NCBI RefSeq assembly: GCF_008831285.2 | Contig: NC_045143.1 | Span: forward strand, 17,398,464 to 17,462,463 | Direction: 5' to 3' | DNA from: Nymphaea colorata | Lineage: Eukaryota > Streptophyta > Magnoliopsida > Nymphaeales > Nymphaeaceae | DNA length: 64,000 nucleotides | Position numbers and translations under genes: made by a program | In this document: in pieces, positions 27,531 to 57,427 of the stretch | Numbering within the stretch: the stretch's first letter is position 1 | Layout: each line of letters opens with the position of its first letter | The notes under the pieces: model-generated | What the model was told of the DNA's origin: nothing | The model's input: only the letters and a program-made list of their open reading frames with translations | The model's database searches: none

Positions 27531-28316
27531 ATTCTGTGCACCCAAAATTTGGTGTTATAATCTATCTTCACTTTAATGCTTGTTTTTGTTGGGTTGTTTT
27601 TCATTGATACTCAATTATGTTGAAATATACTACTCTAGAGTAGCTTAATCATCCAATTTCTTATTATTATATGAGTAATGTAACTTAGTCATGGCTTTAC
27701 TTGACGTTAATTTGACTTATTTCTTCTGAATTATGCATGTAATCAGGTCATTTTACAACCTTTACGTTTGCAAGTTATATATTATTCTGCTTGAAAAGCC
27801 ATATTGAACAAAACTCAAGCTGTAGTCACCGAGTTGAATCCCGAGTCATGAGCTGATAATGGGCAAAGCCGGGTCCCAGCTCACTGGGTTTAAAAATATT
27901 GCCTACAGCTTGAATGCTGGACGACTTTGTAATATTTAATGGGCTTTCTCTAGAAGAGTTTGTGAGCTGTTCTTGTGCATCTTTCTCTCTCAGCCTCTCT
28001 CTCACACACAGGGTCATTCTTGTTATATTGTTGTTTTAGCTGGAACGCCTTATTAAAGAAAAGTCTTGTACATCCTTTGGAAATGTCAAGGCAGTCCTAT
28101 ATTCTACCTATTTTTGTCCATGATCACAAAGTAGCCATTTTGTAACTGGTAGGAAATTATACCAATTTGGATTTTTTTTCTTTCTCTAATAGTGTGGGAC
28201 TGGTTTCCATTACTTTCTTGGCCTGCTTCAACTTTTGTTGTGTTTGGAATCTATGGACATCTCTGGGTTGTGACAAATGCTAATTTTTTTGTGAAGCACA
28301 GAGAAATACAGCGGTA

Positions 28317-29561
28317 ATGGCATCAATGACAACGCCCGCTTTTTCAATGAGAACCACTGGTTTTGATGCATATTCATCTCCATCATCAAGGTTCAGGCCC
28401 TCTTTTGCAAGGTTCAAGCCCAGAGTTGATCTTCAGAGGTTCAGTGGTCTGAAGGCAGCAACTGGTGTCATCATGGAATCGGAATCTTCATTCTTAGGCA
28501 AGGAAAGTGGTGCTGCTCTTCTAGTTTCATCAAGATCATTAGAATGCAAACAAGCATGCGAACAATCTAGTTGTCTGCTGCCAAGAGCTTCGTCCTACAA
28601 GGTAGCTGTCCTGGGGGCTGCTGGAGGAATTGGGCAACCGCTAGCACTTCTGGTCAAGATGTCCCCGTTGGTGTCCTCATTGCATCTTTATGATGTTGCT
28701 AACGTTAAAGGAGTTGCTGCTGACCTTAGTCATTGCAATACTCCTTCTCGGGTCCTGGACTTTACAGGTCCTTCTGAGTTGGCTAATGCCTTGAAAGGTG
28801 TGGACGTTGTCGTGGTTCCAGCTGGAGTGCCAAGGAAGCCTGGCATGACACGTGATGATCTTTTCAATATCAATGCTGGTATTGTCAAAAGCTTAGTTGA
28901 GGCAGTGGCTGATAATTGTCCTGGTGCCTTCATTCACATTATCAGCAATCCAGTCAATTCCACCGTGCCAATTGCAGCTGAAGTTTTGAAACAGAAAGGC
29001 GTTTATGATCCAAAAAAGCTTTTTGGGGTTACCACCCTTGATGTTGTGAGAGCAAATACATTTGTTGCACAGAAGAAGAATCTGAGGCTGATTGATGTTG
29101 ATGTACCAGTTGTTGGTGGGCATGCCGGCATTACTATATTACCATTACTGTCCAAAACAAAGCCATCAGTTAGTTTCACCGGTGAAGAGGTGGAGGATCT
29201 TACTGTGAGGATCCAAAATGCTGGAACTGAAGTTGTTGAGGCAAAAGCTGGTGCTGGTTCAGCTACTCTTTCCATGGCATATGCAGCAGCTAGATTTGTG
29301 GAATCTTCCCTCAGGGCCTTGGATGGTGATAGCGACGTGTATGAATGTTCTTATGTGCAGTCTGAGCTGTCGGAGCTTCCATTCTTTGCTTCAAGAGTCA
29401 AGCTGGGGAAGCAGGGTATCGAAGCCTTCATATCTGCAGATCTTCAAGGGCTGTCTGAGTATGAGCAGAAGGCCCTGGAAGCCTTGAAACCAGAACTGAA
29501 GGCAAGCATTGACAAGGGCATCGCCTTCGTGCATAAGCAGGCTACTACAGCTGCAGTTTGA
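28317..29561 (+). CDS. Plastidial NAD-dependent malate dehydrogenase, copy 1
   Basis: Intronless CDS of 414 codons. Residues 1 to about 88 are Ser/Arg-rich and poor in acidic residues at the start, as expected for a plastid transit peptide. The mature enzyme begins near [20 protein letters not shown], with the dinucleotide-binding GAAGGIG at 100-106 and the NAD-selecting Asp126 (LYDVA). Substrate arginines lie in [12 protein letters not shown] (Arg173, Arg179) and LDVVRA (Arg245), with Asn211 in ISNPVNS. The catalytic pair is Asp242 and His269 (GGHAG). Known role: interconverts malate and oxaloacetate with NAD(H) in plastids, for redox balance in the dark and in embryo plastids. The start fits because it opens the transit peptide and follows acceptor-like AG sites. 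Complete, no defect. Confidence 0.95.
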
Positions 29562-31390
29562 GTTGTATCAAGCCTTCCTTTAATTAGAAGAATAACGGCA
29601 GCAGACGATTTGCCTCCAGGTGGGGCACTTGATTGCGGGGTTGCTGCCAAATTTTGTAGGAACGAGTCTTTTCAAGCAATTTGGTAGAGGAGAGTTTTGG
29701 ATGAAAGTCGAAAACGTGTGCATGATTAGATGCTATAGAAATGTAACCAACCGGTGTCTGGTTTCTTGCAGTAATCAGATCCTTTGGCAGAATCATTTAC
29801 GGAAACCAGGCTTTCATAGTCTCTATGGGAACCATGTTGCTTGGATTCGCAATCTTCCCAAGATTGTTTCATTGTACAATTCATATTAAACGCGTTCTGT
29901 TGTTGTGGATGGTGCATACTCCTTTATTCTAGTACTCTGAGCAGTTTTGGAATCGATCAAGGTGGTGTTCTGTTTTTATCAAGGCATTTTAGGACTAGAT
30001 CAAAGTATACATGATTTGTATCCGTATTGGCCCATATTCATATATTAATGGATCCAATAAAGTAGAATGGATCAATTTTTGACTATTATGAATATGGATC
30101 CAGGTTATATATTGTAGATTTGGAATATTGAAAGTTGGTCTTTCCATTTGGATTTTTGGGTAGGACCTTGCTAGCTTTTCCAAATTGGATCCATAAAATT
30201 AATAAATAGGATCCTTGTTTGGGTCCAACTACAAGGCAAATCCAATGAGGTGTCACGGATCAGCCTTTCAGTCCAAATTTAGCTTTCTAGGCTTTTCATT
30301 CTTTCTCCGACAAATGAATCATTGTCAGAATTTGACTTGCAGTCAGAACTGTACATGAGATTGAAATCTAGTCACCGAGTCGAACACAAACTTAGTGGTT
30401 GGGACTGGCTCACCCTTGTTAGTAAAAACTAATTAAGTTAATTAATTATCGATAATATCTTTTTCATTTAAAGATTTAAATTGGGTGGCAAGATGCATGC
30501 ATCGCCTGTCGCAGCATTTGTATATTAAAATGCTTTTCAGTCTCTACAACAAGATCCCACGACCCACCTTTTCGAAACAGAGGCTGCTTGCTCTTGTGGT
30601 TGTCGATTGCTGAGGTTGCTCCATGCTCCGTTCTTTCTTGGCCCTTTAGCTTTTTACTTTAGTACGTTATTTTACTATTACTTTTTTTTTTTATGATAGT
30701 ACTTGTCACAGTTGATAAATATCTTTCAATAAAACATGTGGACATGGTCACATAATGTCAATCAATAATTGAATTCGCAAATTTTGTGTTGGCAAGTCTC
30801 AATATGGACCGTCAGTTTTAGTCTGTGCACGAGGAGCGGCTGTTGGGGATGTCACCACTGCATCATGCTCTCTCTCTCTCTCTCTACTATTATTATTCTT
30901 CATTCAGGATCTTTAACTTCGCTTCTTACTTTCTGCTTGAGCTTTCATGTAATCGCAAAACGGTGGGGCGGCCTCTGTTTCGTTGGTGAAGAAAGACAGT
31001 GGGCCGAACTAGTGGAATGCCCATCCACTAATTCTTCGAATTGTTGTTTTCTTGTGATTCCTTTTCCCTTGATCAATAATATTTAGTCGAGTGTTCATTA
31101 TAACACGAGTCGGTTGAACGATTATTGCAAAATCTCTTGCCTTGTGACAAACGGGAAATGTGAAGTTGATACATCATATGGTTCCAAACGTACATGGATT
31201 AGAGTCCAATAGTAATGGCAGTTTCAGAGATATGATTATGATTCCTCTCTAAGGGGACTAATTGCATGTATTTAGAATTTCTTTTGAATGTTCTTCCATT
31301 AGATAGTAAGTGAAACAAATCTGAGTTCCTTTAGCTGACAGTTCCATAACCCTTTTCCCTTTGAACCAATTTGTTTTTTTCCTAAAGTAG
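29562..31390. other. 3' flank of MDH copy 1, no further gene seen
   Basis: Contains the likely 3' UTR. A stretch at about 30020-30235 is rich in ggatcca/tggatcc words, another cryptic word repeat. A (CT)n run lies near 30870-30886. Copy 2 repeats all of this at about 46585-48413. Confidence 0.5.
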
Positions 31391-31642
31391 TCAGTCACCT
31401 TGAGACTTTGGTGTGCTGTTGTATTCTTCACCACCCTCAGGCTCAGCATTCAGGCAAACTTGTCCAGCACCAATATTCATACTGCCGACAATGCACGTAA
31501 GAAAGAAGCGTGTTGAGGGTACTTCTATCTCTTGAAAACACAGCTTGGCTTCTAATTTTCTCAACTTATTATCCACCAAATAATGGCTGTCGTAAAGAAG
31601 CTGGCCCAAAGTGACCTCGTGAGGCCTTAGAGTTTGGAGCAT
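31391..31642 (-). CDS. Hypothetical 83-codon frame, perhaps a gene remnant
   Basis: Open minus-strand frame starting MLQTLRPHEVTLGQLLYDSH and ending with a hydrophilic tail (GGEEYNSTPKSQGD). Its composition is more protein-like than that of neighbouring frames. I do not recognise it, and no exons can be joined to it. The same frame is preserved unchanged at 48414-48665, but that only reflects the recent duplication. It may be a decayed exon or chance. Confidence 0.2.
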   Translation of the reverse strand: MLQTLRPHEVTLGQLLYDSHYLVDNKLRKLEAKLCFQEIEVPSTRFFLTCIVGSMNIGAGQVCLNAEPEGGEEYNSTPKSQGD

Positions 31643-33240
31643 CTTAATTTAGACAATTCCAACCGAAATTCACCCATTTAGGCAAAAAGATAAAAACCTA
31701 CATAGACTTCTTGGGCCAAAAAAGATTGAAAACAAAACAAGGAAACGTATGCTTTCAAATTCTTAACATGAAAAATAAAATAAAACTGAAAACGTAGAAA
31801 ATTTTTATTTTCAATATCCTTTCCAATCGAGAGTTAAGATGCAACAAGTTTCAGATCCTTATGATTTCAATTCTTTTTCAAAATCCTTTATTTATTTTGA
31901 AATATAGTTCAAAAGCTGCTTCTCTTTCTGTAGAAAGAGTGAATTCAAGTCCAGGCCTCAAAATTAACCTGGCAGGAGAAAAATGAAAAAGCTTGTCATT
32001 ATAAAAACTGGGAAGTTCTTCGATGTCAATATTAAAGTTCAAGGCACAAAATGATTTCAATCTTTCTGACCAAACCTTGTTGGGTAATTTTTCAACTCAG
32101 CCAATCACTTTAGTAAGTAGAATATGCAAGGCTTAAGAAACATGCAGTACTCTTCTTGTAAGAGATGGATGGGAAAAGAGGAGATAAAAAGGCCCAAAAA
32201 ATTGCTATGGCAATAAATGAAGTATCCAATCGGCCACCAATGTGCCCATATTAGAGGTGCACAAGCATTTCCCCTCCAAGTTGAGGGACGAGATATACGT
32301 GTGATTTGCTGGAGAATCCTGCAAATGAAGAGTATATCTTCAAATATGAATTTGTGCAAAATGAAAATGTATGAAAGGTTCACTTAGACAAAAAATGAAT
32401 ACCTGAGGAAGGATCGATTTGCAAGAGCTACAAAATTAAGGCAGGCAACCAACCCCATAAAGTGAAATTCAAGTGACAAGCTCAAGAGAAAACTACCACT
32501 CTCTGTACTACCATTAAGGTTAACGGTTAACCTGGACCTTTCTAGAAGAGGTACTTTCAAAAGGATTCTAGAATTTTTGAAATTGACTCATTTTGGTAAA
32601 GGGTTAAGCGCCACCAGCCTCATTGAAAAGAGGTGCTTTCAAAAATAAATTTCAAGTTCTTGGAAATTTGTACATCTAGAGTAAGGGCCTATATGAAGTT
32701 CACTTCCAACACAAATTCTTAAATTTTTGAAATTACACTCTTTCAGTTTATAAAATGTTAAGCTTGAGCTAGCCTTGCTCATCGAGAAGAGATATTTCGA
32801 AAAATCGTTCTCAATATTTGTCTATTCAACTGTATTGCCCCATATTGCAGGCACTTTTCGAGCCTATATCTTTATATTCTTGAGTTGTTTGTTATACGTT
32901 GTTACTGGTGGTAGCCAACTTTCTCGTGGATGGTAGGAGACTGGTACGGTTGGATGGAGCTCAAGACCAGCTCTCCAATGATATTGATTTGGCTAAAATT
33001 GGACTACGCATGGTGAAGAACCGGTTTATGAAAATCTGAGTCCCTTTGAGAATTCTAGAAAACTTAATTGTAATTTTTAAAATTTGGTAAGCTGTTTTTT
33101 TGTAAATGCAAAGTACTCTTGAGGAATTTAACTGCAAGATAGTCGGTGGATTAGTAAATTGGTTAATAAGCAGGATTAGAACAATTTAATAATGGATTAA
33201 TACTGATTTAATTAATGAGATTAAAAACTAATTATACTAC
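31643..33240. other. Intergenic, no gene supported
   Basis: A-rich minus-strand frames (for example 32105-32383) lack recognisable motifs. No repeat structure stands out. Confidence 0.4.
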
Positions 33241-33287
33241 TATTGAGCTGGTCAGAGAAGAATGGTGAGAAAGAGAGTGGGAGAGGA

Positions 33288-33409
<122 letters not shown>

Positions 33410-33529
33410 GGGAAAACTCTAGCCATCTGGTAGGGGTCTATCTAGTACCATTGGGGAAATTTTTGGTAGTTTTTGACACCTTCGATTCGATCAAAATCAT
33501 TGTTCAGTTCAGGTATGGTGTTCATGGGA

Positions 33530-36500
33530 TTTTCAAGTTGTTGGCTGGCTGAAGAACGACCAACTCATCTTGTCTTTTAATGATACTGTGCATGCTCATG
33601 TCATTGGATTGAATACCTCATATGGCTTATGGAAGACTCTCATATAGTGTTTCGCAGCCCATTCTCGATCAAAGAACATGCAGTTAAAAGAGCAATTACA
33701 TGTTCTTAAGAAGGGTACTTTATCTACTGATGAATATAAAAGGCCAAGATGTTGGCTCACCAGCTTGCTAAGGCTGGCAAACCTGTCGATGATGAAGACT
33801 TGATAATGCACCTCTTAAGAGGCCGCCCGCTAGAATATGGACCATTTAAAGCACTGTTACAACTTATGTGAATCCTATATCTCTAGCTGAATTGAACGGA
33901 CTGCTTCTTATTCAAGAAACACAAATCAAAGATCAAAAGGATGCATCAAGTGGTGGTATGGTGCAGCCCTTGGCTAATGTTACATAATATAAAACTGAAG
34001 TTAAAGAGGTTTACTTTTGTCAAGGTTCATATAGTCGAGGAGGCAATAACTTTAATCGTGGCTGTGGACGAGGAAGAGGTAGGTGGCCATACTGACTACA
34101 ACAAGCCTAGAGTCGTTTGCCGCTACTGTGACAAGCCAGGACACTCTACCAACACTTGCTTCAAATCACTGGCAATATTAATTCCCAAAATCAAACAGGA
34201 AGTGAAGCTACTGTCTATCATTCTTTTCCTCTGCATATAATGGATGGAAACGGCTGGATCCCAGACTTTGGGGCAAGCCACCAAATAACAAATATATTGG
34301 AGAATCTATCCTTGCATGAGTCCTACGTAGGTTTTGATTTAGTCAAAATGGGTAATGGCTTAGGAGTTCCTCTCAAGGACATTGGTAAGGCTCTCTTCAA
34401 AGTCTCTAAATATTATATTTCTTTGCAAAATATCTTACATGTTGTCAACATAGTTCACACTTTATTGTCGGTTAATAGATTTTTCAACGAGGATAAAGTT
34501 GTTTTTGAATTTCATCATGATAACTATGTGGTTAAGGATCAGCTCACAACAAGAGAGATTCTTAGGGGGACAAGTCATGCAAGGCTCTACCGGATCAACT
34601 TGCTGACGCCGGTAGACATTGAGAAACACAAGAAGTTGGTGCTTTATGAGGAGCATGTTCCCTTGGAATGATGGCATGAGAGACTAGGTCATCCTAATTT
34701 TGAAGTTGTTAGAGATATGATTCATAAGTTTGAACTTATGAAGTATTGTTTGGGAGGCCACCTAATTGCACATCTCTCTGTGTCTTTGGTTGTATTATAT
34801 ACTCGTGCCTTCAACCCACTAGAAAGACGAGCTAGAATTTAAATTTTAAACAATGTGTCCTCCTTGGGTATTCTAATGTCCATAAGGGTTTCATCTGTTT
34901 TCAAATGAAACTAAGAAATATATAGTTAATCAAAATGTAATTTTTAATGAGACCCAACTTTTGCTCATACCCAGTCAGCCAAAAACCCATTGAAACCCCT
35001 AAAGCCACACTGGTTTCTATTCCATTACCTTTATCAACACCCATTGAACCCGACATTTACCAAGGCACTCCCTCGCCGAGCCTTGAAGGGTCAAAACCTG
35101 AACCTAATGAGACCATTTCATCCTCTTGTAAACAGCCCACTATACGACGTCTTCGTATGCACCAAATGGTCACACGATCCCAAGATGGGACTCATCGACC
35201 AAATGTGTACTAGTCGACTTTGTATCCTATTCCTCTTGCCCTCAATTCCAAAGTCGATGACCTAAGACCCAAAACCTATAACCAGGCTGCCCAACATGCT
35301 CACTGGAGTGACCCCATGAAAAAAGCAGTTGAGGCTCTCTGCAGTAATGGAACTTGGATGCTTGTCTCTTCTCTTTCAGATCAACCCCATCAATGGTTGC
35401 AAGTGGGTTTACAAAGTAAAGCACAATATACAGGTTCAAGGCAATACTATCAAACTGATGGGGTCAACTACTTCGACACATAGTAGTAAAATCCACAACC
35501 ATTTGCACAGAGCTTTCTCTTGCCATCTCTCATGATTGGATGATTAAACAATTAGATGTTAACAATGCTTTCTTGAATAGTGTCTTGACAAAACCAGTCT
35601 TCATGGCACAACCACCAGTATGAAGATGAGCATCACCCTGGTGCGTTTGTAGTTTACAAAATGCTTTTATATGGACTGAAACGGACTCCTGGAGCCTGGC
35701 ATCAAGAGTTGAATTGTGCTCTCATTCAAGTGGATTGCAAATGGCCACCACAGACATTTCATAATTTGTTCTTAATGGGTGGCAATTTAAGATCTATATG
35801 ACAATATATGTAGATGACATCCGGACATCCAATTCTTTATGTAACGTCTGATCAATACACTCAACAAGGAATTTGCTCTCAAGGATCTAAGGCCTCTCCA
35901 CTATTTTCTCAGAGTCCAAGCTATTCAGTCTTCACACAGCTTATTCTTAATGCAGTATAAATATTCTTTTGAGATGAGCAAAAATTGTTGGGGTTAAGCC
36001 TATCTCCACTCCCACGTCAACAACCACAGCATTAACTAAGGTGGGCGCTCATTTTCTGGACACCACACAATATAGGCAAACAGTGGGTGCACTTCAATAT
36101 TTCTCTCTCTCTCTCTCTCTCTCTCAATCTTGCCTTTGCTGTTAATAAGGCCCGCCAATTTATGCAAGCACCGACACTTGACCATTGGATTGCAGTCGAG
36201 CGCATTCTCTGCTACCTAAAGGGTACCTTGCAGTATGGTCTTCTCCTTCCCAAGTTCAAATGGGAGCTAAATGCCTATTCTGATTGAGACTGGGCCGTTG
36301 CTCTGATGATCGAAAATCTACTGGAGCCTATACAATTTATCTCGGACCTAATTAGATCGTTTGGAGTTCCAAAAGCAACCTATTGTTTTTTGTTCATTTA
36401 CAGAGGCTGAATATAGGGCTGTTGCCAACAATGCTGCTGAACTTCTCTAATTATGATCTCTTCTTGGGGAACTTGGAATTCAAATCACTTGTGCTTCAGT

Positions 36501-37052
36501 CATTTGGTGTGACAATGTGAGCGCTACATGCTTGTCTGCCAATTCCATTCTACTCCAGAAAAGCAAACATATTGAGATCGATTCACTCTTTGTTTGAGAT
36601 CATGTTACAAGGGGAAAATTATTGGTTCAGCATCTTCCTTCCTCTCACCAGCTCACCAATTTTGTAAATAAACCTCTTGCTGAATTACAAAATTGACAAA
36701 TGCAAAAAGCTGAGTACAAAACTATAGTAGACATTGAATGCAAAATAGTTTGGCCAAAAGCACTGTTGGCAGATTTCCAGTTGTTGTTCCTCATCCAATC
36801 ACCTTGTTTAATGATAACAAATCTACTATACAAATTTCAGCGAATCCTGTTTGGAATGTACACACCAAGCATGTCAAAATCAACTGTCACCTGGTGTGTA
36901 ATGTGGTTACAACTGGAATGATTAATATTTAGCATGTTCCGTCACACTTGTAGTTGGTGGATATATTTACCAAGTCTTTAAATAAGGATCAATTTGCATT
37001 CTCAAATCCAAACTGAGTGTAGGTGATCTCACCCTCCAGTTCAAGGAGGGGG
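33530..37052 (+). mobile_element. Decayed Ty1/copia retrotransposon, copy 1
   Basis: Pol/gag debris in order on +. Gag (33535-33960): WLKNDQLILSFND, SRSKNMQLKEQLHVLKKGTL, EYGPF, with stops and shifts. CCHC knuckle CRYCDKPGHSTNTC (about 34117-34160). Protease-like WIPDFGASHQIT (the usual DSG reads DFG). Pre-integrase WHERLGHPNFEVV. Only the integrase tail remains (VLLGYSNVHKGFICF-like). RT has [35 protein letters not shown] and YVDD at 35807-35818. Two RNase H C-terminal parts follow in tandem. A purine tract (tcaaggaggggg) precedes a TG that opens a probable 3' LTR at 37053. No 5' LTR found. Non-functional. Confidence 0.85.
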
Positions 37053-37500
37053 TGTTAAAGCCTAAAATTAGAAGAATCCGGATACTTTGGCTTCAAATAT
37101 TTTCTTTCTTATGAGGCATATATCAATTCTGTTGCAGATATGTTCCCACGCGGTGGGGATTTGAGTGCACAAAAAAGGATTTTCACCATTGATTTTTCTT
37201 GTGATTTTTTGGTAATTATTATAATAAAGGGAACAATAAGCTTCTCTTGCCATAATTCTGCCCTAATCCTGAGTCATTGAATAGATACCTCTCATTTTTA
37301 ATGAAAGAAAAGGACGATTTTCTTATGCGTATACATCGGTTTTTTAAAATTTGCTGGTGTGTCTCTGTTTTACGCCTAAGCTGCTGCCTGTTTTTCCTTT
37401 GCTCTGCTACTTTTCTCAGGAGCTGCCTCTGCTTGCAAAAGCAACTAGCTATAAAAGCTAATTTCACTCGCAACGAAGGCAAAAATTGCGTCAGTTGTAG
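37053..37500 (+). repeat. Probable 3' LTR start of the copia remnant, copy 1 (right edge uncertain)
   Basis: Directly after the polypurine tract the sequence begins TGTTAAAGCCTAAAATTAG, as a copia LTR would. The right edge cannot be fixed, because no second LTR is present for comparison. The end given is only indicative. Confidence 0.4.
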
Positions 37501-37699
37501 CTTTAACTGAAAACGACAATTATGTATGGAGATATCTAATCGATGGAGAAAACTGATGGAGGCATTAATCGATGGAGCTCTTGGAAGTCACAACAATCGA
37601 AAGCCCAGCCTCTAAAAAGAGTAAATTCTGGGCTGTTTCCGTCTCCCACGCGAAATATCCCAACTTGATACATAAATGCATTTTTGACTCCATGAAGTC

Positions 37700-37740
37700 G
37701 CTCTCTCTGTCTCTGTCTCTGTCTCTGTCTCTGTCTCTCG
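37700..37740. repeat. (CTCTGT)n microsatellite, copy 1
   Basis: Hexanucleotide array; copy 2 (about 54712-54750) is 2 bp shorter. Confidence 0.9.
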
Positions 37741-38109
37741 ACTTGTCCTGCTCTGTTTCCTGCGTACTTCTCCAGTTCTGCAGTAACATTTTGGCTTTTC
37801 AGATTTTCGTTTTGAGCTGTTCCTCTGTTTTTCCTTGATCCCGAGACTTAAAATTGTCTGGTTTCACAAGAAAAAACGTTTTCATTTTAACTAGAAAGTA
37901 AAGAATAACCACCAAGAGAATGACAAAATAATGTCGTGATATACATACATCGTTTAAGTGATTTCTTCGACATCCCAGAAGAGAAAACACGATTTTCCGA
38001 ACTTACACGGAATTAATTTCCGAAATGCTATTCTTAAGTTAACCAAACCAGAGAAAACAGAGCTGCATTTATTGAGTGGGCAAGCTCAGAGGGTTGAGTA
38101 AAACAGATT

Positions 38110-39087: not shown

Positions 39088-39152
39088 TTCCAAACTCCCT
39101 TGTTGCAGACTGCTCAGCTCGTGGATGAAGGTAGACCAGAAGCTACTCCCCA

Positions 39153-40350: not shown

Positions 40351-40422
40351 TTAAAAAACTTTTATTTAACCAATAAGTGACAAGGGGATGAGAATAGTGA
40401 ACCCACTTTTTGCTACGAATAG

Positions 40423-41599
40423 TGTAGGCCCCATTTTTGGCTAAAATGACCCCTTTGGGAGGGAGGGTTTGGCTATGTTGGGTGGGCATTAGCCCTGTCC
40501 ACACCCCAAAGGGGTATTTGCATGGCTAATGGCCAATCCCACTTGGTCAAAACATATTTAAAAAAAATAAAAAATCATTCAAAAATACTTGAAATTTGCA
40601 TAAAAATGTTGTTAAATTAAAAAAATTCAAAATTTGAGTTTTGACTCCAAAACTATTTAGAAATACCCTCATAATCTTCTCTTTTGGGCATGTGCTAACC
40701 CTTGGGGAACTTCTATTGTTTTCTTATCTGAAGATTTAAAGTTTTCCTTTGCTCTCTCTCCATTTCTCTCTTCTTCTCTTCTTCTTCTTCTCCAACCTTG
40801 GGAGCAAGTTTCTCTAAGTTCCAATCCTTCAAAGGAGCACAAGGAGATCTCTTGGATACCTTTATTATTTTGGAGCATCACCCAAGGAAACTCTAGAATC
40901 ATGAGAAGAAAGAGACTTGTTCCTAATATCATCTATATTTTAGGTATGTAGTCCTCTATTTGTTTTCATTTATTTTCATTCCTCTTGCCACCTCCCCATG
41001 GCAGTGCAAGATAGCTCTAAAAATTTCCTATCTAGAGTCGAGAGCTACTCTTGAATGCATTGAGAGCATGTGCAAGGCGAAATAAATTTTGTTTCTTTAT
41101 TTATTTTCAAAATATTTTTGTTATGTTGCTTTGTTCATCATCTATGCTTGAGATGATGTCCATGCTTGAGATGATGTCCATGCTTGATAGTTTTTCTTAA
41201 TTAATGAGTGAATGAACAGTGAGAATGAGTGTTTGGGTTGAGATTTTTTCATTATTATATTGATTTTGAGCTTGAGATTCCTCTAACCCGAGAAAAACCC
41301 TTCATGAATATGTACTTGTTAAAATGCATCTTCATGACATTTTCATGTTTAATTCCTCTCTTAATCACCCAGTTAGGAACTCCAATGAATGTTTTATTAC
41401 ATTCTTCTCCATTGCATGTGTGTTTGATTTTCTTCCATACCCAACGTAGGAGAAATATATTTTCTTGTAATAAACGACACATATAAAATACTTAGAATCA
41501 TGTTTTCTAAAAGATTTTCGAAAACAAGAACCCTCTTTAATGAGGCCTTGGAGACTTAGCCTATGCTTTTGCATGACTTAAGTTCCTCTCCAGCCTACA
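40423..41599 (+). mobile_element. LTR-like repeat with TGTAGGC...GCCTACA ends
   Basis: 1177 bp with a 7-bp terminal inverted repeat (TGTAGGC at 40423, GCCTACA ending 41599). The first about 870 bp recur at 63134-64000 with around 98-99% identity by eye and an identical left terminus in different flanking DNA, which fixes that terminus as an element end. No coding capacity, a CT-rich middle (about 40745-40790) and TG...CA ends fit a retrotransposon LTR. No matching target duplication and no primer-binding site follow on the right. An internal 20-bp word (gatgatgtccatgcttgaga) is doubled at about 41152-41190 but single in the other copy. Confidence 0.6.
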
Positions 41600-41827
41600 T
41601 AAAAAAATTGAAGTAATATATTTTTAACTTATTTCTTGATTTCAAATCTCATAAAAACATATGCGTATATACATGTTATATACTATACTGCACATGACTC
41701 TCTCTCTTTGTCTTTCTGTCTTTATGATTTAGCATACTCTTTTACAAATTCTCATATATGTACATGTATAAATGAATGTATATACATGTGTTCCACTTTT
41801 TCTCTCTCTAAAATCTCTCTCTTTTTC

Positions 41828-41887
<60 letters not shown>

Positions 41888-41890
41888 GTA
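41828..41890. repeat. (TA)n microsatellite
   Basis: About 60 bp of TA with a few interruptions (TACATA, TACGTA). Confidence 0.9.
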
Positions 41891-42154
41891 TATAAGAATA
41901 TGTATATCTCTCCCTTTTATAAACCTTTTATTTTGTGAATTTCAAAATCTATTTCTCTCTTTCCTTATTCCTCTCGGATTAAAGTCTTTTCTCTTTTCCA
42001 TTGTTTTGAATATTTTTTTTCCTAAGATCTAAGGTTTTAACTTTTCATTTGCCGACTTCACCGAAACTAAAACTCAAGTAATGACCCAATATTGGAATCA
42101 TACTTGATGGTTTAGAACCCTATTCCATTTTCAAAAACTTTTCTATTTTCATAA

Positions 42155-44266
42155 AGGGCTCGTTTGATTCACTGGAAATATACTGTTGAACAAGAAAATT
42201 GTTTTAAATATTTAAAATATTTCCATTTCATCAAATGTGCAAATATTTTTTGTAACGTTGAAGACATTTCAGAAAAAAATTTCCGGAAACATCTTTCCAC
42301 CGTGAGAGGTGGAAAGATATTTTCTGTTTTTTTTTTTTGCCCGTTAGGGCATGCAAAGGCCATCTTCTTGTCCTCAGCTGCTTCACCCCACCCACGAGAG
42401 AGAGAGGAATGCTGCTCCTGCTGTTGCTGCCTTCCTTCGTTGCTGCTGCCTCAGATGCATCCGTCGTCCCTCTCACCCTCTCATTCTCTTGCTGTGTAAG
42501 TAATCCTCTCTCTCTCTATCTCTCTCTCCCTCTGTTCCTGGTGATCCACTGACTATGCATTCCTCTCTCCATCATCATAACATAGACTTGTTGCTCGATT
42601 TTCAGTGGATCTGGAAAAGTTGCCTCAAGAAACATCATCAACTCCTTGCAAGGGCTGAAAATCAAATGGGTAGGGTTTTCACGAGATCCACCTCCTCTTA
42701 CATCTTCTTGTCTATTTTTGTTTTCCTTCCTGATGAATCTTCTTCGAGAGCTCTTTTGCCTAATTTTGTGATTGGATTGGCACTTGTGTTATGATTTCTA
42801 TTTTTCACTACACGTTCCCTGCCTTAATTTGTTCCCTGCCTTTGGTAGCAGCTATTTCAAGCATTGAGTCTACAACTCAGCGCGATCCCTTCCGTCTCTC
42901 TCGCTCCATTGCCTCTCTACTGTAGTTATAGTTGTGCCCAGCCTTAAACATGTTCTTGAGGTTCTATTACCAGACTTAACTCTTCATTTTCTTCAGGTTT
43001 GAAAACCAATGAACGGCTCTAGTATGTGATGTAAGACGCATCTAATAGTTTTTGGCTAGCTGTTACTAAATTGGCTTCTAGCTTTCTTTATGAGTCATAT
43101 CACATTAGGTTCTCACCAAGATTAGTACAACATGCATTGCGTGCTTTCGAACATACTCTTCCTGAGTAGACCAAGTAGCTTACTGCTTTCTAATTGTTTT
43201 CCAGTGGTATGTATAGATCTTCTGATCTAAGAAAACTGCGGCAGACATTGTTGAATCTATTTCTTGTAATTATGGCCTTGTAAGTTCCACTTAGCTGAAA
43301 GCAAATTATTTGGGTTTATAGTGCATCTTTTAAGTCAATTCCTTCTTCAAATGGATTAGGTGATCTTTCATGTCATAATTTATGGCGAGTTCTTGAGGGA
43401 TTATTTGACATGATCATCCAATCTTCTTTGTTCGGAAATTAATTCCCTTTAAATATTTATAGTTGATGAACTCCATTTCCCTGTCCCTTGCTAAGAGATA
43501 TTAAACAATATACCAACAAATAAGGATTCTGTGAAATTGTGGATGGGGATTCTTTTGCTGAACCTGAAAAGCCAAGATGGTCATTATCTGTTTTGGGGAT
43601 CTTTCATGGTTTCTTTTCTGTCTTCAACATATATAAATATATCATGTATTATCCCACACCAACATATAACAGCATTTTCAATTTCCTTGAAGACTAAAAC
43701 AACATAAAGAAACCTACCTCAATCGTTCCACCAGCAACCTTCTTGGATCTCTAGAAAAATCATGCACTCCAATTATCGTCAAGAGCTAAACTACACTTTG
43801 TTGTCTACTCTTTCAGGGGAGAAAAAGTTGAGAATTTCATTATACGTCCCATAATACCTCTCAGCCCATATCTTGTTCTTCACTATGAACGTCAATCGAA
43901 CTCCATTTTGGTTACCCTTCCCTTCTACAGTGTCCAGTCGGCAATACCACGTCAATGGCGATATCACCTGTCAGTATAGTCTAATGCAATTTGAATAGTA
44001 GAAGCACTCAAGGTAACAAACAATTGAGCAAAATGAAAAAATCTAAGAAAAAAAAGGATCGTCAAACGAACACCAAGAACCAGATGCATTCCACTAAACC
44101 TAGAAATATATTTCTTTTTCATCAAACTAAGAAATAAATTTACAATCAACACACGCACATCAAAAATGAGAATCATAAACATTTTTCCCATTCCTTTATT
44201 CCAGAAAACTTATTTCCAGAAATGTTTTTTCAATTCCAGATTTCTTTGTCATCAACGGCCCCCAAA
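42155..44266. mobile_element. Possible DNA transposon with gggctcgtttga / ggccgttgatga ends
   Basis: The left end reads gggctcgtttgattcactgg. The right end, reverse-complemented, reads gggggccgttgatgacaaag. The resemblance is imperfect, and both continue into ctggaaat-like words. No target duplication could be seen. The interior (42360-42800) has a CT-rich, leader-like stretch with a GTAAGT donor-like site at about 42496, which could be a captured untranslated exon. Tentative. Confidence 0.3.
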
Positions 44267-45091
44267 AATATTCATGACAATCTTATAAATAAAAACAGGA
44301 AACTTAGATGTATGTGATGGTAGGAATGCTTTTAATGAATGTTATAGTAGGAATGAATGATTTGCTTCTAATCATATAGGGTTAATGAATTCATACATCC
44401 ACATTCACATGACATCATGAATGATCACAAGCACATCTCTAAAAGAACTTAATCAAAATAATATTGACATCTAGTTTGGTAGTAATTGAATTAGAGCAAA
44501 ATCTCAAACCTACTTAAAGTCTTAAGAGAACATTAAAGTGGCTTCAAAAAGTGATCGTTAAAGGTTTCCAAATGATATTTGTAAAGTTTTCTCAATTCAA
44601 AATTTCCCAAATCAAAATGTTTTATATTCTCAAATGATTCTTTAAAACTTTTTCAAAAATTTGAAACATCAAATCTTCAACATTTTTGCAACATCACACC
44701 ACATTTAGAATAAAAGATGTTTCAGCCAAAATAAAATGCATCAAGAATAAACATAGCCCTTGGATTGGTTGCCCCTGGTAAAGGTGCCGAGAATGGTCAA
44801 TCCTTGTACAGACGGGTGAGTCCCTTTCTCCTCTTATTTAAAAAAAAAATAAATTATAAAGACTTAAAAAACGAAAATGGATTTTTGGGTTGCAAACACA
44901 AACTTACTTGCAAGTCAATAGCAAATATGGAAACTTTATTTACCAAAACTTCATGAGCATATCATAGGAATGCTCTTCAAATAGGTCATTGAACCTTCCT
45001 CCCCATCTATATATGGTTGTTCATGTTACATGTGCAGCATTTGGCCCATCGACAATCCCACCAGTCCTCCAGCACAATGCTGCAAATGATC
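44267..45091. other. AT-rich DNA before the gap, no gene seen
   Basis: No family signature. The short stretch at 44765-44830 has GCGGAGCC-repeat-like words. The last 90 bp before the gap are unique within the window. Confidence 0.4.
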
Positions 45092-45191
45092 NNNNNNNNN
45101 NNNNNNNNNNNNNNNNNNNNNNNNNNNNNNNNNNNNNNNNNNNNNNNNNNNNNNNNNNNNNNNNNNNNNNNNNNNNNNNNNNNNNNNNNNN
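45092..45191. other. Assembly gap of exactly 100 N
   Basis: 100 consecutive N, the conventional size for a scaffold gap of unknown length. True distance and order across it are not established by the sequence. Confidence 1.
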
Positions 45192-45340: not shown

Positions 45341-46584
45341 ATGGCATCAATGACAACGCCCGCTTTTTCAATGAGAACCACTGGTTTTGATGCATATTCA
45401 TCTCCATCATCAAGGTTCAGGCCCTCTTTGCAAGGTTCAAGCCCAGAGTTGATCTTCAGAGGTTCAGTGGTCTGAAGGCAGCAACTGGTGTCATCATGGA
45501 ATCGGAATCTTCATTCTTAGGCAAGGAAAGTGGTGCTGCTCTTCTAGTTTCATCAAGATCATTAGAATGCAAACAAGCATGCGAACAATCTAGTTGTCTG
45601 CTGCCAAGAGCTTCGTCCTACAAGGTAGCTGTCCTGGGGGCTGCTGGAGGAATTGGGCAACCGCTAGCACTTCTGGTCAAGATGTCCCCGTTGGTGTCCT
45701 CATTGCATCTTTATGATGTTGCTAACGTTAAAGGAGTTGCTGCTGACCTTAGTCATTGCAATACTCCTTCTCGGGTCCTGGACTTTACAGGTCCTTCTGA
45801 GTTGGCTAATGCCTTGAAAGGTGTGGACGTTGTCGTGGTTCCAGCTGGAGTGCCAAGGAAGCCTGGCATGACACGTGATGATCTTTTCAATATCAATGCT
45901 GGTATTGTCAAAAGCTTAGTTGAGGCAGTGGCTGATAATTGTCCTGGTGCCTTCATTCACATTATCAGCAATCCAGTCAATTCCACCGTGCCAATTGCAG
46001 CTGAAGTTTTGAAACAGAAAGGCGTTTATGATCCAAAAAAGCTTTTTGGGGTTACCACCCTTGATGTTGTGAGAGCAAATACATTTGTTGCACAGAAGAA
46101 GAATCTGAGGCTGATTGATGTTGATGTACCAGTTGTTGGTGGGCATGCCGGCATTACTATATTACCATTACTGTCCAAAACAAAGCCATCAGTTAGTTTC
46201 ACCGGTGAAGAGGTGGAGGATCTTACTGTGAGGATCCAAAATGCTGGAACTGAAGTTGTTGAGGCAAAAGCTGGTGCTGGTTCAGCTACTCTTTCCATGG
46301 CATATGCAGCAGCTAGATTTGTGGAATCTTCCCTCAGGGCCTTGGATGGTGATAGCGACGTGTATGAATGTTCTTATGTGCAGTCTGAGCTGTCGGAGCT
46401 TCCATTCTTTGCTTCAAGAGTCAAGCTGGGGAAGCAGGGTATCGAAGCCTTCATATCTGCAGATCTTCAAGGGCTGTCTGAGTATGAGCAGAAGGCCCTG
46501 GAAGCCTTGAAACCAGAACTGAAGGCAAGCATTGACAAGGGCATCGCCTTCGTGCATAAGCAGGCTACTACAGCTGCAGTTTGA
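45341..46584 (+). pseudogene. Plastidial NAD-malate dehydrogenase, copy 2, frameshifted transit peptide
   Basis: Same gene as 28317-29561, but the run TTTT (28402-28405) is TTT here (about 45426-45429). From the ATG at 45341 the frame runs 44 codons and stops at 45473-45475. The rest is open from an internal Met at 45496 (362 codons) and keeps every catalytic residue, but only a truncated targeting region of about 38 residues. If real, the product would lose normal plastid import or depend on re-initiation. If a consensus error near a contig end, the gene is intact. I favour the error, because other homopolymer indels cluster within 240 bp of the gap. Confidence 0.85.
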
Positions 46585-50422
<3,838 letters not shown>

Positions 50423-50542
50423 GGGAAAACTCTAGCCATCTGGTAGGGGTCTATCTAGTACCATTGGGGAAATTTTTGGTAGTTTTTGACACCTTCGATT
50501 CGATCAAAATCATTGTTCAGTTCAGGTATGGTGTTCATGGGA

Positions 50543-53500
50543 TTTTCAAGTTGTTGGCTGGCTGAAGAACGACCAACTCATCTTGTCTTTTAATGATACT
50601 GTGCATGCTCATGTCATTGGATTGAATACCTCATATGGCTTATGGAAGACTCTCATATAGTGTTTCGCAGCCCATTCTCGATCAAAGAACATGCAGTTAA
50701 AAGAGCAATTACATGTTCTTAAGAAGGGTACTTTATCTACTGATGAATATAAAAGGCCAAGATGTTGGCTCACCAGCTTGCTAAGGCTGGCAAACCTGTC
50801 GATGATGAAGACTTGATAATGCACCTCTTAAGAGGCCGCCCGCTAGAATATGGACCATTTAAAGCACTGTTACAACTTATGTGAATCCTATATCTCTAGC
50901 TGAATTGAACGGACTGCTTCTTATTCAAGAAACACAAATCAAAGATCAAAAGGATGCATCAAGTGGTGGTATGGTGCAGCCCTTGGCTAATGTTACATAA
51001 TATAAAACTGAAGTTAAAGAGGTTTACTTTTGTCAAGGTTCATATAGTCGAGGAGGCAATAACTTTAATCGTGGCTGTGGACGAGGAAGAGGTAGGTGGC
51101 CATACTGACTACAACAAGCCTAGAGTCGTTTGCCGCTACTGTGACAAGCCAGGACACTCTACCAACACTTGCTTCAAATCACTGGCAATATTAATTCCCA
51201 AAATCAAACAGGAAGTGAAGCTACTGTCTATCATTCTTTTCCTCTGCATATAATGGATGGAAACGGCTGGATCCCAGACTTTGGGGCAAGCCACCAAATA
51301 ACAAATATATTGGAGAATCTATCCTTGCATGAGTCCTACGTAGGTTTTGATTTAGTCAAAATGGGTAATGGCTTAGGAGTTCCTCTCAAGGACATTGGTA
51401 AGGCTCTCTTCAAAGTCTCTAAATATTATATTTCTTTGCAAAATATCTTACATGTTGTCAACATAGTTCACACTTTATTGTCGGTTAATAGATTTTTCAA
51501 CGAGGATAAAGATGTTTTTGAATTTCATCATGATAACTATGTGGTTAAGGATCAGCTCACAACAAGAGAGATTCTTAGGGGGACAAGTCATGCAAGGCTC
51601 TACCGGATCAACTTGCTGACGCCGGTAGACATTGAGAAACACAAGAAGTTGGTGCTTTATGAGGAGCATGTTCCCTTGGAATGATGGCATGAGAGACTAG
51701 GTCATCCTAATTTTGAAGTTGTTAGAGATATGATTCATAAGTTTGAACTTATGAAGTATTGTTTGGGAGGCCACCTAATTGCACATCTCTCTGTGTCTTT
51801 GGTTGTATTATATACTCGTGCCTTCAACCCACTAGAAAGACGAGCTAGAATTTAAATTTTAAACAATGTGTCCTCCTTGGGTATTCTAATGTCCATAAGG
51901 GTTTCATCTGTTTTCAAATGAAACTAAGAAATATATAGTTAATCAAAATGTAATTTTTAATGAGACCCAACTTTTGCTCATACCCAGTCAGCCAAAAACC
52001 CATTGAAACCCCTAAAGCCACACTGGTTTCTATTCCATTACCTTTATCAACACCCATTGAACCCGACATTTACCAAGGCACTCCCTCGCCGAGCCTTGAA
52101 GGGTCAAAACCTGAACCTAATGAGACCATTTCATCCTCTTGTAAACAGCCCACTATACGACGTCTTCGTATGCACCAAATGGTCACACGATCCCAAGATG
52201 GGACTCATCGACCAAATGTGTACTAGTCGACTTTGTATCCTATTCCTCTTGCCCTCAATTCCAAAGTCGATGACCTAAGACCCAAAACCTATAACCAGGC
52301 TGCCCAACATGCTCACTGGAGTGACCCCATGAAAAAAGCAGTTGAGGCTCTCTGCAGTAATGGAACTTGGATGCTTGTCTCTTCTCTTTCAGATCAACCC
52401 CATCAATGGTTGCAAGTGGGTTTACAAAGTAAAGCACAATATACAGGTTCAAGGCAATACTATCAAACTGATGGGGTCAACTACTTCGACACATAGTAGT
52501 AAAATCCACAACCATTTGCACAGAGCTTTCTCTTGCCATCTCTCATGATTGGATGATTAAACAATTAGATGTTAACAATGCTTTCTTGAATAGTGTCTTG
52601 ACAAAACCAGTCTTCATGGCACAACCACCAGTATGAAGATGAGCATCACCCTGGTGCGTTTGTAGTTTACAAAATGCTTTTATATGGACTGAAACGGACT
52701 CCTGGAGCCTGGCATCAAGAGTTGAATTGTGCTCTCATTCAAGTGGATTGCAAATGGCCACCACAGACATTTCATAATTTGTTCTTAATGGGGGCAATTT
52801 AAGATCTATATGACAATATATGTAGATGACATCCGGACATCCAATTCTTTATGTAACGTCTGATCAATACACTCAACAAGGAATTTGCTCTCAAGGATCT
52901 AAGGCCTCTCCACTATTTTCTCAGAGTCCAAGCTATTCAGTCTTCACACAGCTTATTCTTAATGCAGTATAAATATTCTTTTGAGATGAGCAAAAATTGT
53001 TGGGGTTAAGCCTATCTCCACTCCCACGTCAACAACCACAGCATTAACTAAGGTGGGCGCTCATTTTCTGGACACCACACAATATAGGCAAACAGTGGGT
53101 GCACTTCAATATTTCTCTCTCTCTCTCTCTCTCTCTCAATCTTGCCTTTGCTGTTAATAAGGCCCGCCAATTTATGCAAGCACCGACACTTGACCATTGG
53201 ATTGCAGTCGAGCGCATTCTCTGCTACCTAAAGGGTACCTTGCAGTATGGTCTTCTCCTTCCCAAGTTCAAATGGGAGCTAAATGCCTATTCTGATTGAG
53301 ACTGGGCCGTTGCTCTGATGATCGAAAATCTACTGGAGCCTATACAATTTATCTCGGACCTAATTAGATCGTTTGGAGTTCCAAAAGCAACCTATTGTTT
53401 TTTGTTCATTTACAGAGGCTGAATATAGGGCTGTTGCCAACAATGCTGCTGAACTTCTCTAATTATGATCTCTTCTTGGGGAACTTGGAATTCAAATCAC

Positions 53501-54064
53501 TTGTGCTTCAGTCATTTGGTGTGACAATGTGAGCGCTACATGCTTGTCTGCCAATTCCATTCTACTCCAGAAAAGCAAACATATTGAGATCGATTCACTC
53601 TTTGTTTGAGATCATGTTACAAGGGGAAAATTATTGGTTCAGCATCTTCCTTCCTCTCACCAGCTCACCAATTTTGTAAATAAACCTCTTGCTGAATTAC
53701 AAAATTGACAAATGCAAAAAGCTGAGTACAAAACTATAGTAGACATTGAATGCAAAATAGTTTGGCCAAAAGCACTGTTGGCAGATTTCCAGTTGTTGTT
53801 CCTCATCCAATCACCTTGTTTAATGATAACAAATCTACTATACAAATTTCAGCGAATCCTGTTTGGAATGTACACACCAAGCATGTCAAAATCAACTGTC
53901 ACCTGGTGTGTAATGTGGTTACAACTGGAATGATTAATATTTAGCATGTTCCGTCACACTTGTAGTTGGTGGATATATTTACCAAGTCTTTAAATAAGGA
54001 TCAATTTGCATTCTCAAATCCAAACTGAGTGTAGGTGATCTCACCCTCCAGTTCAAGGAGGGGG
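50543..54064 (+). mobile_element. Decayed Ty1/copia retrotransposon, copy 2
   Basis: Duplicate of 33530-37052 with the same stops, frameshifts, integrase deletion and doubled RNase H end. It was therefore duplicated as dead DNA, not by transposition. YVDD is at 52819-52830 and the probable 3' LTR begins at 54065. A Val-to-Asp change lies in the protease/pre-integrase frame (51512), and one base is missing near 52791. Confidence 0.85.
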
Positions 54065-55119
54065 TGTTAAAGCCTAAAATTAGAAGAATCCGGATACTTT
54101 GGCTTCAAATATTTTCTTTCTTATGAGGCATATATCAATTCTGTTGCAGATATGTTCCCACGCGGTGGGGATTTGAGTGCACAAAAAAGGATTTTCACCA
54201 TTGATTTTTCTTGTGATTTTTTGGTAATTATTATAATAAAGGGAACAATAAGCTTCTCTTGCCATAATTCTGCCCTAATCCTGAGTCATTGAATAGATAC
54301 CTCTCATTTTTAATGAAAGAAAAGGACGATTTTCTTATGCGTATACATCGGTTTTTTAAAATTTGCTGGTGTGTCTCTGTTTTACGCCTAAGCTGCTGCC
54401 TGTTTTTCCTTTGCTCTGCTACTTTTCTCAGGAGCTGCCTCTGCTTGCAAAAGCAACTAGCTATAAAAGCTAATTTCACTCGCAACGAAGGCAAAAATTG
54501 CGTCAGTTGTAGCTTTAACTGAAAACGACAATTATGTATGGAGATATCTAATCGATGGAGAAAACTGATGGAGGCATTAATCGATGGAGCTCTTGGAAGT
54601 CACAACAATCGAAAGCCCAGCCTCTAAAAAGAGTAAATTCTGGGCTGTTTCCGTCTCCCACGCGAAATATCCCAACTTGATACATAAATGCATTTTTGAC
54701 TCCATGAAGTCGCTCTCTGTCTCTGTCTCTGTCTCTGTCTCTGTCTCTCGACTTGTCCTGCTCTGTTTCCTGCGTACTTCTCCAGTTCTGCAGTAACATT
54801 TTGGCTTTTCAGATTTTCGTTTTGAGCTGTTCCTCTGTTTTTCCTTGATCCCGAGACTTAAAATTGTCTGGTTTCACAAGAAAAAACGTTTTCATTTTAA
54901 CTAGAAAGTAAAGAATAACCACCAAGAGAATGACAAAATAATGTCGTGATATACATACATCGTTTAAGTGATTTCTTCGACATCCCAGAAGAGAAAACAC
55001 GATTTTCCGAACTTACACGGAATTAATTTCCGAAATGCTATTCTTAAGTTAACCAAACCAGAGAAAACAGAGCTGCATTTATTGAGTGGGCAAGCTCAGA
55101 GGGTTGAGTAAAACAGATT

Positions 55120-56097
55120 TCAACATAATTTAGCAGAGAGCGGCGGTCCACAGAGGCAGCGGTTGTGCATATAGGACGAACTATCGAACTTCTGCATGTT
55201 CCCACCTTGGGGGATCCTCCCGCACAGCCTGTTGTAGCTCACGTTGAACTGCTGCAGGTTAGCGAGGCTCGTAATTTCCGTGGGGATGCTTCCCCCTATC
55301 ATGTTATGTGAGAAATCCAAGATCTGCAAGCCGGACGGGAAGGTGACACCGGTCAGGTCGAAATCGAAGAGATTCCGGGAGAGAATCAAGGTGCTCAGTG
55401 ACTTGGATCGATTGTTGAAGAGGTGAGATGGGTCGCCGACTAGCAGATTCCTATCGAGATCGATGGTGGAGAAATCGACACGGCCAAGAGACTTGGGTAT
55501 GGGGCCGGAAAGGCTATTGTGAGAGAGGAAGATCGAAGGGTTGGCGCCTCGGAACTGGCCGAAGGACTCGGGTATGGGACCGGTCAGCTTGTTGCGGTCC
55601 AAATGCAGCCATGTGAGACTGGGAAGATCAGCAAGGGTTGGGGGAATGGAGCCACTGAACTGGTTGTAGGACAGGTCCAAACCCCCCAGGTTGGTCAGTC
55701 GATTCAACCAACTTGGTATGGGGCCGGAGACGTTCGTCCAGGTGATGCGAAAGTAGGTGAGCTTGGTGAGGCTGGCGAAGGATGGTGGGATTCCTCCATG
55801 AAGATTCGGCATCTTATGGATGCTGAGAAACTGCAAATTGGGGAACTTGGCGATGGCTGCCGGAATCGGGCCATTAAAGTCATCGCCGAAGAGGCTGAAG
55901 CTCGTCACGCTGCTGGTGTTTGGATTGCACTGGATCATGCTGAATAGGTGGCAGCAGTCACCGGTGAAGGTCGTCCGGTTGAGGGCGGCGAAGATCTCGT
56001 TCACAACCTGCGCATCTTCGGGAAGGCATCGCCACCTGGAAGCAGAGGCGACGGTGATGGAGAGGGAGAACAAAAGGAAGACGAAAAGGCGAGGCAT
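55120..56097 (-). CDS. Polygalacturonase-inhibitor-like LRR protein (PGIP type), copy 2
   Basis: The predicted protein is identical in all 325 residues to copy 1 (38110-39087), with the same signal peptide, cysteine caps, LRRs and intronless structure. Its TATA box is at 56163-56170. If both copies are real they would double gene dosage of one inhibitor. PGIP genes do occur in tandem families in plants, but those usually show divergence in the LRR face, unlike this pair. Confidence 0.87.
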   Translation of the reverse strand: MPRLFVFLLFSLSITVASASRWRCLPEDAQVVNEIFAALNRTTFTGDCCHLFSMIQCNPNTSSVTSFSLFGDDFNGPIPAAIAKFPNLQFLSIHKMPNLHGGIPPSFASLTKLTYFRITWTNVSGPIPSWLNRLTNLGGLDLSYNQFSGSIPPTLADLPSLTWLHLDRNKLTGPIPESFGQFRGANPSIFLSHNSLSGPIPKSLGRVDFSTIDLDRNLLVGDPSHLFNNRSKSLSTLILSRNLFDFDLTGVTFPSGLQILDFSHNMIGGSIPTEITSLANLQQFNVSYNRLCGRIPQGGNMQKFDSSSYMHNRCLCGPPLSAKLC

Positions 56098-56162
56098 TTC
56101 CAAACTCCCTTGTTGCAGACTGCTCAGCTCGTGGATGAAGGTAGACCAGAAGCTACTCCCCA

Positions 56163-56170
56163 CTTTATAA
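56163..56170 (-). promoter_or_regulatory. TATA box of PGIP-like gene, copy 2
   Basis: TTATAAAG on the minus strand, same spacing as in copy 1. Confidence 0.7.
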
Positions 56171-56304
56171 TCTCCGTCTCTGTCTCTCTGGCGCCCGCTT
56201 TCGACAAAATTTTCTAAAGGCGGCCAGCTTACGCGCTTCATTAATGGATCCCATTTTCGTTTTCCTTGAAATTGAGCTCATGACATGCGGAAGTAAAGGT
56301 GAGT

Positions 56305-56545
56305 AACGCTGGGCAACGGGTCCATCTAAAAAACAGCACTGAGTTGACTCGATCCGGTAACTTACCGAGTCCGCCTTAGTTGGCCCGACGAAGCGCGATT
56401 CAATTTAATACATTTTTTAAATATTATTTTATTTTTAAATAATATACATTTTGTTATGATTAATTATATTATTTTATATTTAAAAGTATATATTTTATTT
56501 TAATCCGACCAAACCCGCTCAGTGCCGGGTCGACCTTGAGCTACA
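56305..56545. repeat. Arm-core-arm dispersed repeat, copy 2
   Basis: Duplicate of 39295-39535, behind the second PGIP-like promoter. Confidence 0.5.
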
Positions 56546-57427
56546 GTGACGGTCCGATGCCATCGGTATGTCTCCTCTCCCGGCCCACATGTTCTCAAAA
56601 CAGGGCCACAGCTGTTAAAGATTTCTTTTGCTTGCTCGTGATATTTGACTCCCCACCACACCGCCTGTCTCGACGTACACGGTTTTCTTTTTCCGAGAGA
56701 CCACAAAATGGCGGGCAGAGAATCTCAACCGCTCATCGTCAGGATGCAGGAATTTTTTCCGTTTGTTTGTCTCCACTCCACAACCATGCATTTATGGGGT
56801 TCAAATTTCTGTCCAATGAGCACCAAAGTTTAAATTTTAAACTTCAAGGGAAGTCTCTATAAATCAATAAGTAAAAATTAAAGGAGGTATTTATACATAA
56901 AGAAGGCAATTTATGTGGGGGCGGTTACTTAATTTTGTGGGTTCTATCAAAGTTGTATGAATTATGTTACAGAGTTTTGAGGGTTCGTTGTTGAGGATAA
57001 ACTCAGAATGGAGAATACATGACAGAACTGCCCTTTCTAAAACATGAAGATCAGAGCCGCCGCCTCTGGTTTGGCATGGATGGATTCAAACTCAAATTCA
57101 CTGTAGTTCAAGTAGCTCGTATGTTAAGTTCCATTTTGGATCGGAATTCAAACTTTATTAACACGAACTAGATGTGATAATTTCCGTATGAACATGAGAG
57201 GGGTAACCTACAGGCCGAGTTTGAGCCAAGCTGGGTCAGCCCAAGATAGCCTAGTTTCTCAATATCTACAGTTCGAGCTGGCTCAAACTTGATTCAAAGC
57301 TTGAGCTAAGAAGCTCGAACTCTCGATCCAAGATTTGGCTTGAGCTTGGGTAGCCATTTATTAAAAAACTTTTATTTAACCAATAAGTGACAAGGGGATG
57401 AGAATAGTGAACCCACTTTTTGCTACG

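Follow-up and report, generated by a model that had tools for sequence, protein, structure and literature searches.

The window analysed here, a 64,000-nucleotide stretch of the Nymphaea colorata genome (C6:17398464-17462463), holds two nearly identical direct copies of a 12-kb block with a plastid NAD-malate dehydrogenase (MDH) gene and a leucine-rich-repeat (LRR) gene resembling those of polygalacturonase-inhibiting proteins (PGIPs), and we lean slightly toward explaining them by a real head-to-tail tandem segmental duplication in cis, on one chromosome, with one of the contigs that document it misplaced and inverted by scaffolding. All comparisons were made on assembled sequence only. A first-pass annotation of the window had described two nearly identical 12-kb blocks beside an N gap, and this holds: the copies agree at 99.82% over 12,256 columns with 4 mismatches, a likeness far beyond chance, and the second begins, as was also claimed, exactly at the first base after the 100-N gap at 45092-45191. 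They differ by 12 events (4 substitutions and 8 indels), and six of the eight indels sit in T runs or AT/CT microsatellites, contexts judged by eye, so that the statement that most differences lie in homopolymers or microsatellites is right for the indels and falls a little short overall, where it covers half of the events. Two further statements have to be corrected. The copies were said to part at one point, but homology is regained at 40422 versus 63133, past 5,701 bases exclusive to copy 2, and continues through a block B (40422-45091 in copy 1, 63133-67797 in copy 2) at 98.0% identity and ~0.5% substitutions until copy 1 ends at the gap. Copy 1, placed from 28168 onward, has its true left edge 1,058 bp further left, at 27110, as seen against a third, inverted copy ~120 kb upstream; the annotation had overlooked both this copy and the renewed homology.

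The wider layout was obtained by comparing a 262-kb region (C6:17270464-17532463) with itself, keeping matches of at least 500 columns; R denotes positions in this region (R1 = C6:17270464) and w those in the window (R - 128000). Gaps of 100 N at R9782, R85208 and R173092 divide the region into four contigs: alpha, beta (R9882-85207, 75 kb), gamma (R85308-173091) and delta (from R173192). The third copy, at R20277-38245 in beta (window -107723 to -89755), is the reverse complement of gamma w27110-45091, with 99.76% identity and 6 mismatches. Beta also matches delta in inverted orientation: block B (R191133-202110 in delta) is present in beta twice, at R13963-24949 and R72668-83652, and an LRR-gene block, C (R205707-212878 in delta), is matched in two pieces by beta R39651-46572. 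Read in reverse, beta runs without a gap through the end of the 12-kb block A, then B, P, C1, J, A, B and P, where numerals mark block copies, J is a copia fragment and P is a nest of repeats, which their LTR (long terminal repeat)-like ends suggest to be retroelements. Between B and C, delta has 3.6 kb (R202111-205706) and beta 26 kb (R46573-72667) of different, repeat-rich sequence. The two ends of beta, R9882-26515 and R68586-85207, are alike over 16.6 kb (0 mismatches, 14 one-base gaps; period 58,704 bp). Beta further holds a 6-kb inverted repeat, R46569-52613 and R54120-60165 (window -81431 to -75387 and -73880 to -67835), with 12 substitutions in 6,045 aligned bases and, next to it, an inverted copy of ~460 bp from the beginning of block C.

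Genome searches covered an assembly of 407,766,735 bases in 783 contigs, and the listed matches of the four queries (the start of block A, the 5.7-kb stretch exclusive to copy 2, J and block C) all lie on assembly sequences C1-C14, names distinct from those of the block copies. The block-A start (a 508-base query) has three near-identical copies, all on sequence C6 within ~140 kb, and one other match, at 74%, on sequence C2. The first 5.0 kb of block C occurs in two full copies genome-wide, those of delta and beta, among the 40 of 266 candidates scored, and the same search shows no further contig carrying C1 into an allelic right flank. Within the 262-kb region, the flanks of the duplicated sequence (R152000-155109 and R212879-216000) have short matches only.

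The junction on which the cis duplication turns lies in beta. At R155110 (w27110) gamma reads left flank and beta reads J (R38246-39650, 1.4 kb), which consists of ten bases followed by copia-type sequence; from its translations, we take the latter to be the 5' LTR, primer-binding site and gag of a copia-type element. C1 is joined to J exactly at AGAATGT, a 7-base word common to the copia family and to an old copia in C, and J is joined to A2 across the 10 filler bases. When one family member was joined to C at random 200,000 times, a fraction of 0.0005 of the junctions reached 7 bases of microhomology. Both joins look as expected of microhomology-mediated or template-switching repair. The family is high-copy: among the 40 of 516 candidates scored, J matches 39 further loci with 96-98% identity, two of these matches being partial, and one adjoining piece with 88%. 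In three of four fetched members the match begins at the identical LTR base, and in the fourth 15 bases later; the identity to these four is 97.0-98.2%, which makes J too diverged for a very recent copy of any one member. Past R212878 delta has no J and runs in what are presumably copia-like frames, a region without a match to J. Derivation of J from the old copia in C by internal deletion was considered and rejected, since J belongs to the high-copy family and this copia region of delta is unmatched. Beta's own correctness aside, two direct units are thus joined head to tail in gapless sequence.

These contig structures, junction sequences and substitution patterns are direct observations; from them we infer a true order that would run left flank - A1 - B1 - P - C1 - J - A2 - 5.7 kb - B2 - 3.6 kb - C2 - right flank, with a first unit of ~57 kb and a second of ~41 kb. 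Block A has two entries (left flank and J) and two exits (B1, and 5.7 kb followed by B2), and the proposed order uses every contig link once, so a single chromosome suffices. The near-identity of A1 and A2 would have broken the assembly into gamma (left flank-A1-B1), beta, and delta (A2-B2-C2-right flank), beta consisting of B1 through C1, J and A2 and then wrapping back into B1 and P; its last stretch (B, P) may be real, as one more unit, or may have arisen when the assembler wrapped around through the near-identical A block. Scaffolding would then have put beta upstream and inverted, when its place is the window's gap, which would hide R37189-78981. Repair of the kind suggested by the junctions would have captured J, and later conversion or exchange may have preserved the likeness of the A copies during the divergence of B and C. 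Related LRR genes cluster at this locus, which we count in favour of cis duplication.

The substitutions fit this account in part. With three edge columns at the breakpoint (w27111-27114) left aside, gamma and beta differ at w27356 and w27593, where delta is absent, and gamma alone differs at w34499, the sole site on beta's J side that can be compared three ways and the one substitution by which copies 1 and 2 differ over their first 11.6 kb. Shortly before block B, divergence climbs steeply: in the 5.3 kb that begin at w39782 and close copy 1, delta alone departs at 27 sites, gamma agreeing there with both beta copies. Beta thus equals delta at w34499 on its J side and gamma at the 27 sites on its far side, as fits a contig that starts as A2 and wraps into A1. 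Against beta, gamma has 6 private substitutions in block B; five fall into two tight clusters and look as if indels had been misplaced there. Gamma also has 16 private small indel events, in its terminal 3.6 kb, and beta's right end has 13, of which 11 lie in its terminal 1.5 kb; sited as they are at contig ends, these look like errors. Between beta and delta, block B differs by 44 substitutions in 10,956 aligned bases (0.40%) and block C by 85 in 6,906, although misalignment may account for 27 of these 85, which fall within one kilobase where the lengths differ; divergence in block A is ~0.01-0.04%.

Several observations weigh against a cis duplication. The distinction between beta's A and gamma's A is carried by one three-way site (w34499) and two two-way sites (w27356, w27593), any of which could be an error or a private change. 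In the AT array at w33352-33367 no two of the three contigs agree in length: delta lacks 10 bases relative to gamma, and beta another 6. Block A of delta also carries 6 further small indels without a counterpart in beta; unless they are errors, these differences would speak against beta and delta sharing one A2. The 0.40% divergence of B would also suit alleles, such unequal divergence of A, B and C would not be expected from one duplication without later exchange, and beta's identical ends would require an assembly wrap or a further copy. The genome-wide search with C spans its first 5.0 kb and stops 2.2 kb short of its right end and of the right flank. Gaps between copies are described as marks of false duplications (PMC9516828), and such a gap does lie between the window's copies. 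Finally, beta may be a chimera, and if its J-A link is chimeric, an allelic explanation returns.

The main rival, unmerged alleles, is the one toward which the first-pass annotation leaned. Here gamma and beta would represent one haplotype and delta the other. Block A would be almost free of heterozygosity, B and C would be heterozygous and polymorphic for a 5.7-kb deletion, and the C1-J-A link would be a chimera or mis-join. The gap between copies, the overlapping contig ends, the substitution rate in B and the differing AT-array lengths are all in keeping with it, as is the way the assembly was made: PacBio RSII reads, Canu v1.3, Arrow and Pilon polishing, and Lachesis with Hi-C, haplotig removal going unmentioned in the parts of the source drawn on here and the stem 'heterozygo' being absent from its main text (PMC7015852). 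An assembly fault does look involved, given the contig-end overlap at the gap and the inverted upstream copy. A simple haplotig overlap, however, leaves the gapless C1-J-A junction with its 7-base microhomology unexplained, and the candidates scored include no other contig that has the initial 5 kb of block C. Alleles alone need C1 to lead to the right flank; it leads to J and A, which a tandem duplication fits better, and three copies with a C1-J-A link speak against a one-to-one allelic relation, with the reservation that beta may be chimeric. We therefore regard the allelic explanation as weakened and, on present sequence, unlikely.

Somewhat less probable again is a duplication confined to one haplotype (A1-B1-P-C1-J-A-B1-P-C1), its near-identical units collapsed into beta, with delta the other, unduplicated haplotype. 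Very young units would be as alike as beta's ends, with 0 substitutions over 16.6 kb, and delta does differ all through B and C; but a C1 leading to the right flank is needed and the search, which used the first 5 kb of C, showed none; the agreement of beta with delta at w34499 is also left to chance. It is very improbable that beta represents extrachromosomal circular DNA or the 58.7-kb unit in a longer array: its overlapping ends and 58,704-bp period, free of substitutions, resemble those of a circular contig, but a two-unit chromosomal duplication could yield the same contig and nothing else suggests a circle. As a more speculative proposal, doubtful in our estimation, the 12.7-kb end with the plastid MDH and PGIP-like genes would have been kept near-identical by recent conversion or exchange while the rest diverged by at least 0.4%, or, more boldly, beta would itself be a 58.7-kb circle or multi-copy array.

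As a whole the 5.7-kb stretch exclusive to copy 2 was found once genome-wide, and the other matches listed (40 of 1129 candidates scored) are pieces of at most ~670 bases, all inside its bases 4824-5506, on which ground a fresh transposon insertion was rejected. Gamma and beta join both sides of the site with a few extra bases, and no target-site duplication was seen at the junction. Occurrence once as a whole makes deletion from copy 1 and beta likelier than new insertion, and of the possible accounts we rank this loss from the gamma/beta version first.

Features of the window, in window coordinates
Feature	Position	Strand	Basis
Left 1,058 bp of duplicated unit, copy 1	27110..28167	+	matches beta R37189-38245, inverted; breakpoint at 27110, where beta has J instead of left flank
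Block A copy 1 (A1), contig gamma	28168..40421	+	99.82% to 45192-57431; 1 substitution vs beta in 12.2 kb (w34499), alignment-edge columns aside
Plastid MDH gene, copy 1, intact, 414 aa	28317..29561	+	open frame
PGIP-like LRR gene, copy 1, 325 aa	38110..39087	-	open frame
Block B copy 1 (B1)	40422..45091	+	truncated by the end of gamma; without the 5.7-kb stretch; 98.0% to w63133-67797
100-N gap	45092..45191	.	N run; would stand for ~41.8 kb in the favoured model (R37189-78981, length from overlaps)
Block A copy 2 (A2), start of contig delta	45192..57431	+	99.82% to 28168-40421
Plastid MDH gene, copy 2, frame-shifted	45341..46581	+	one base fewer in a T run at ~45427
PGIP-like LRR gene, copy 2, 325 aa	55120..56097	-	open frame; PDB match
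5.7-kb stretch exclusive to copy 2	57432..63132	+	self-comparison; genome search
Block B copy 2 (B2)	63133..64000	+	extends past the window to R202110

The MDH gene is intact, with 414 codons, in both gamma and beta, whereas in copy 2 the frame from the same start stops after 44 aa (45341-45475); because beta and gamma are intact, this frame-shift is probably a consensus error near the contig end, and we doubt it as biology. Run on the open frame of copy 2, domain and structure searches gave Pfam Ldh_1_N and Ldh_1_C and, as best PDB match, a chloroplastic MDH, so that both Ldh domains and the closest solved relative agree with a plastid NAD-malate dehydrogenase. The match on assembly sequence C2 (C2:19834199-19834437, 74%), which takes in bases 6-258 of the 508-base query, from upstream of MDH into its 5' part, is perhaps an older paralogous segment. 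The 325-aa LRR protein is identical in all three copies and matches a solved PGIP essentially over its full length (PDB 1ogq, E 5.2e-65, residues 24-322); we call it PGIP-like, an inhibitor role being predicted. It resembles the PGIPs 1ogq and 8ikw in being an LRR protein matched over those residues, and departs from a plain PGIP in having higher scores with receptor-kinase LRR domains (summed repeats) and with the LRR chain of an 'antifreeze polypeptide' (6w78). Related LRR segments, some matched in part, lie at R41757-42759, R209695-210767, R218547-219116, R224610-225409, R246551-247608 and R253340-254031; together, window 37743-39179 and 54753-56189 and R209638-254031 outline a PGIP-like cluster reaching downstream of the duplication, at 73-98% identity, again part-matched in places. 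The assembly shows three copies each of MDH and the PGIP-like gene; the true number is probably two of each, possibly one. Elsewhere in gamma, its left end (R85308-87678) is repeated 12.2 kb on, at R97522-99987 (window -42692 to -40322 and -30478 to -28013), at 97-99%, possibly as long terminal repeats or another small duplication.

Tandem segmental duplications in plant LRR clusters typically show head-to-tail units, microhomology junctions with inserted transposon sequence, and related LRR genes nearby. The present locus shares all three and differs in the very unequal divergence of its units (A ~0.01-0.04%, B 0.40%, C 85/6,906) and in its scrambled assembly. The false heterotype and homotype duplications described in PMC9516828 resemble it in near-identical neighbours split by a gap, contig-end indels and a frame-shifted gene in one copy; unlike them, it has three copies, one of them inverted, and a gapless head-to-tail junction with a 1.4-kb insert. 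For N. colorata itself, the published assembly is given as 409 Mb in 804 scaffolds and 14 pseudo-chromosomes (PMC7015852), and at the level of literature listings nothing pertinent on haplotigs or on tandem duplication with PGIP in this species was found. As an event, such a duplication would be of an ordinary kind. Work on gene number, synteny or dosage that relies on this assembly would be misled by the region as drawn, ~42 kb would belong in a gap drawn as 100 bases and, if the duplication is true, its junction documents a copia fragment caught at a tandem-duplication breakpoint.

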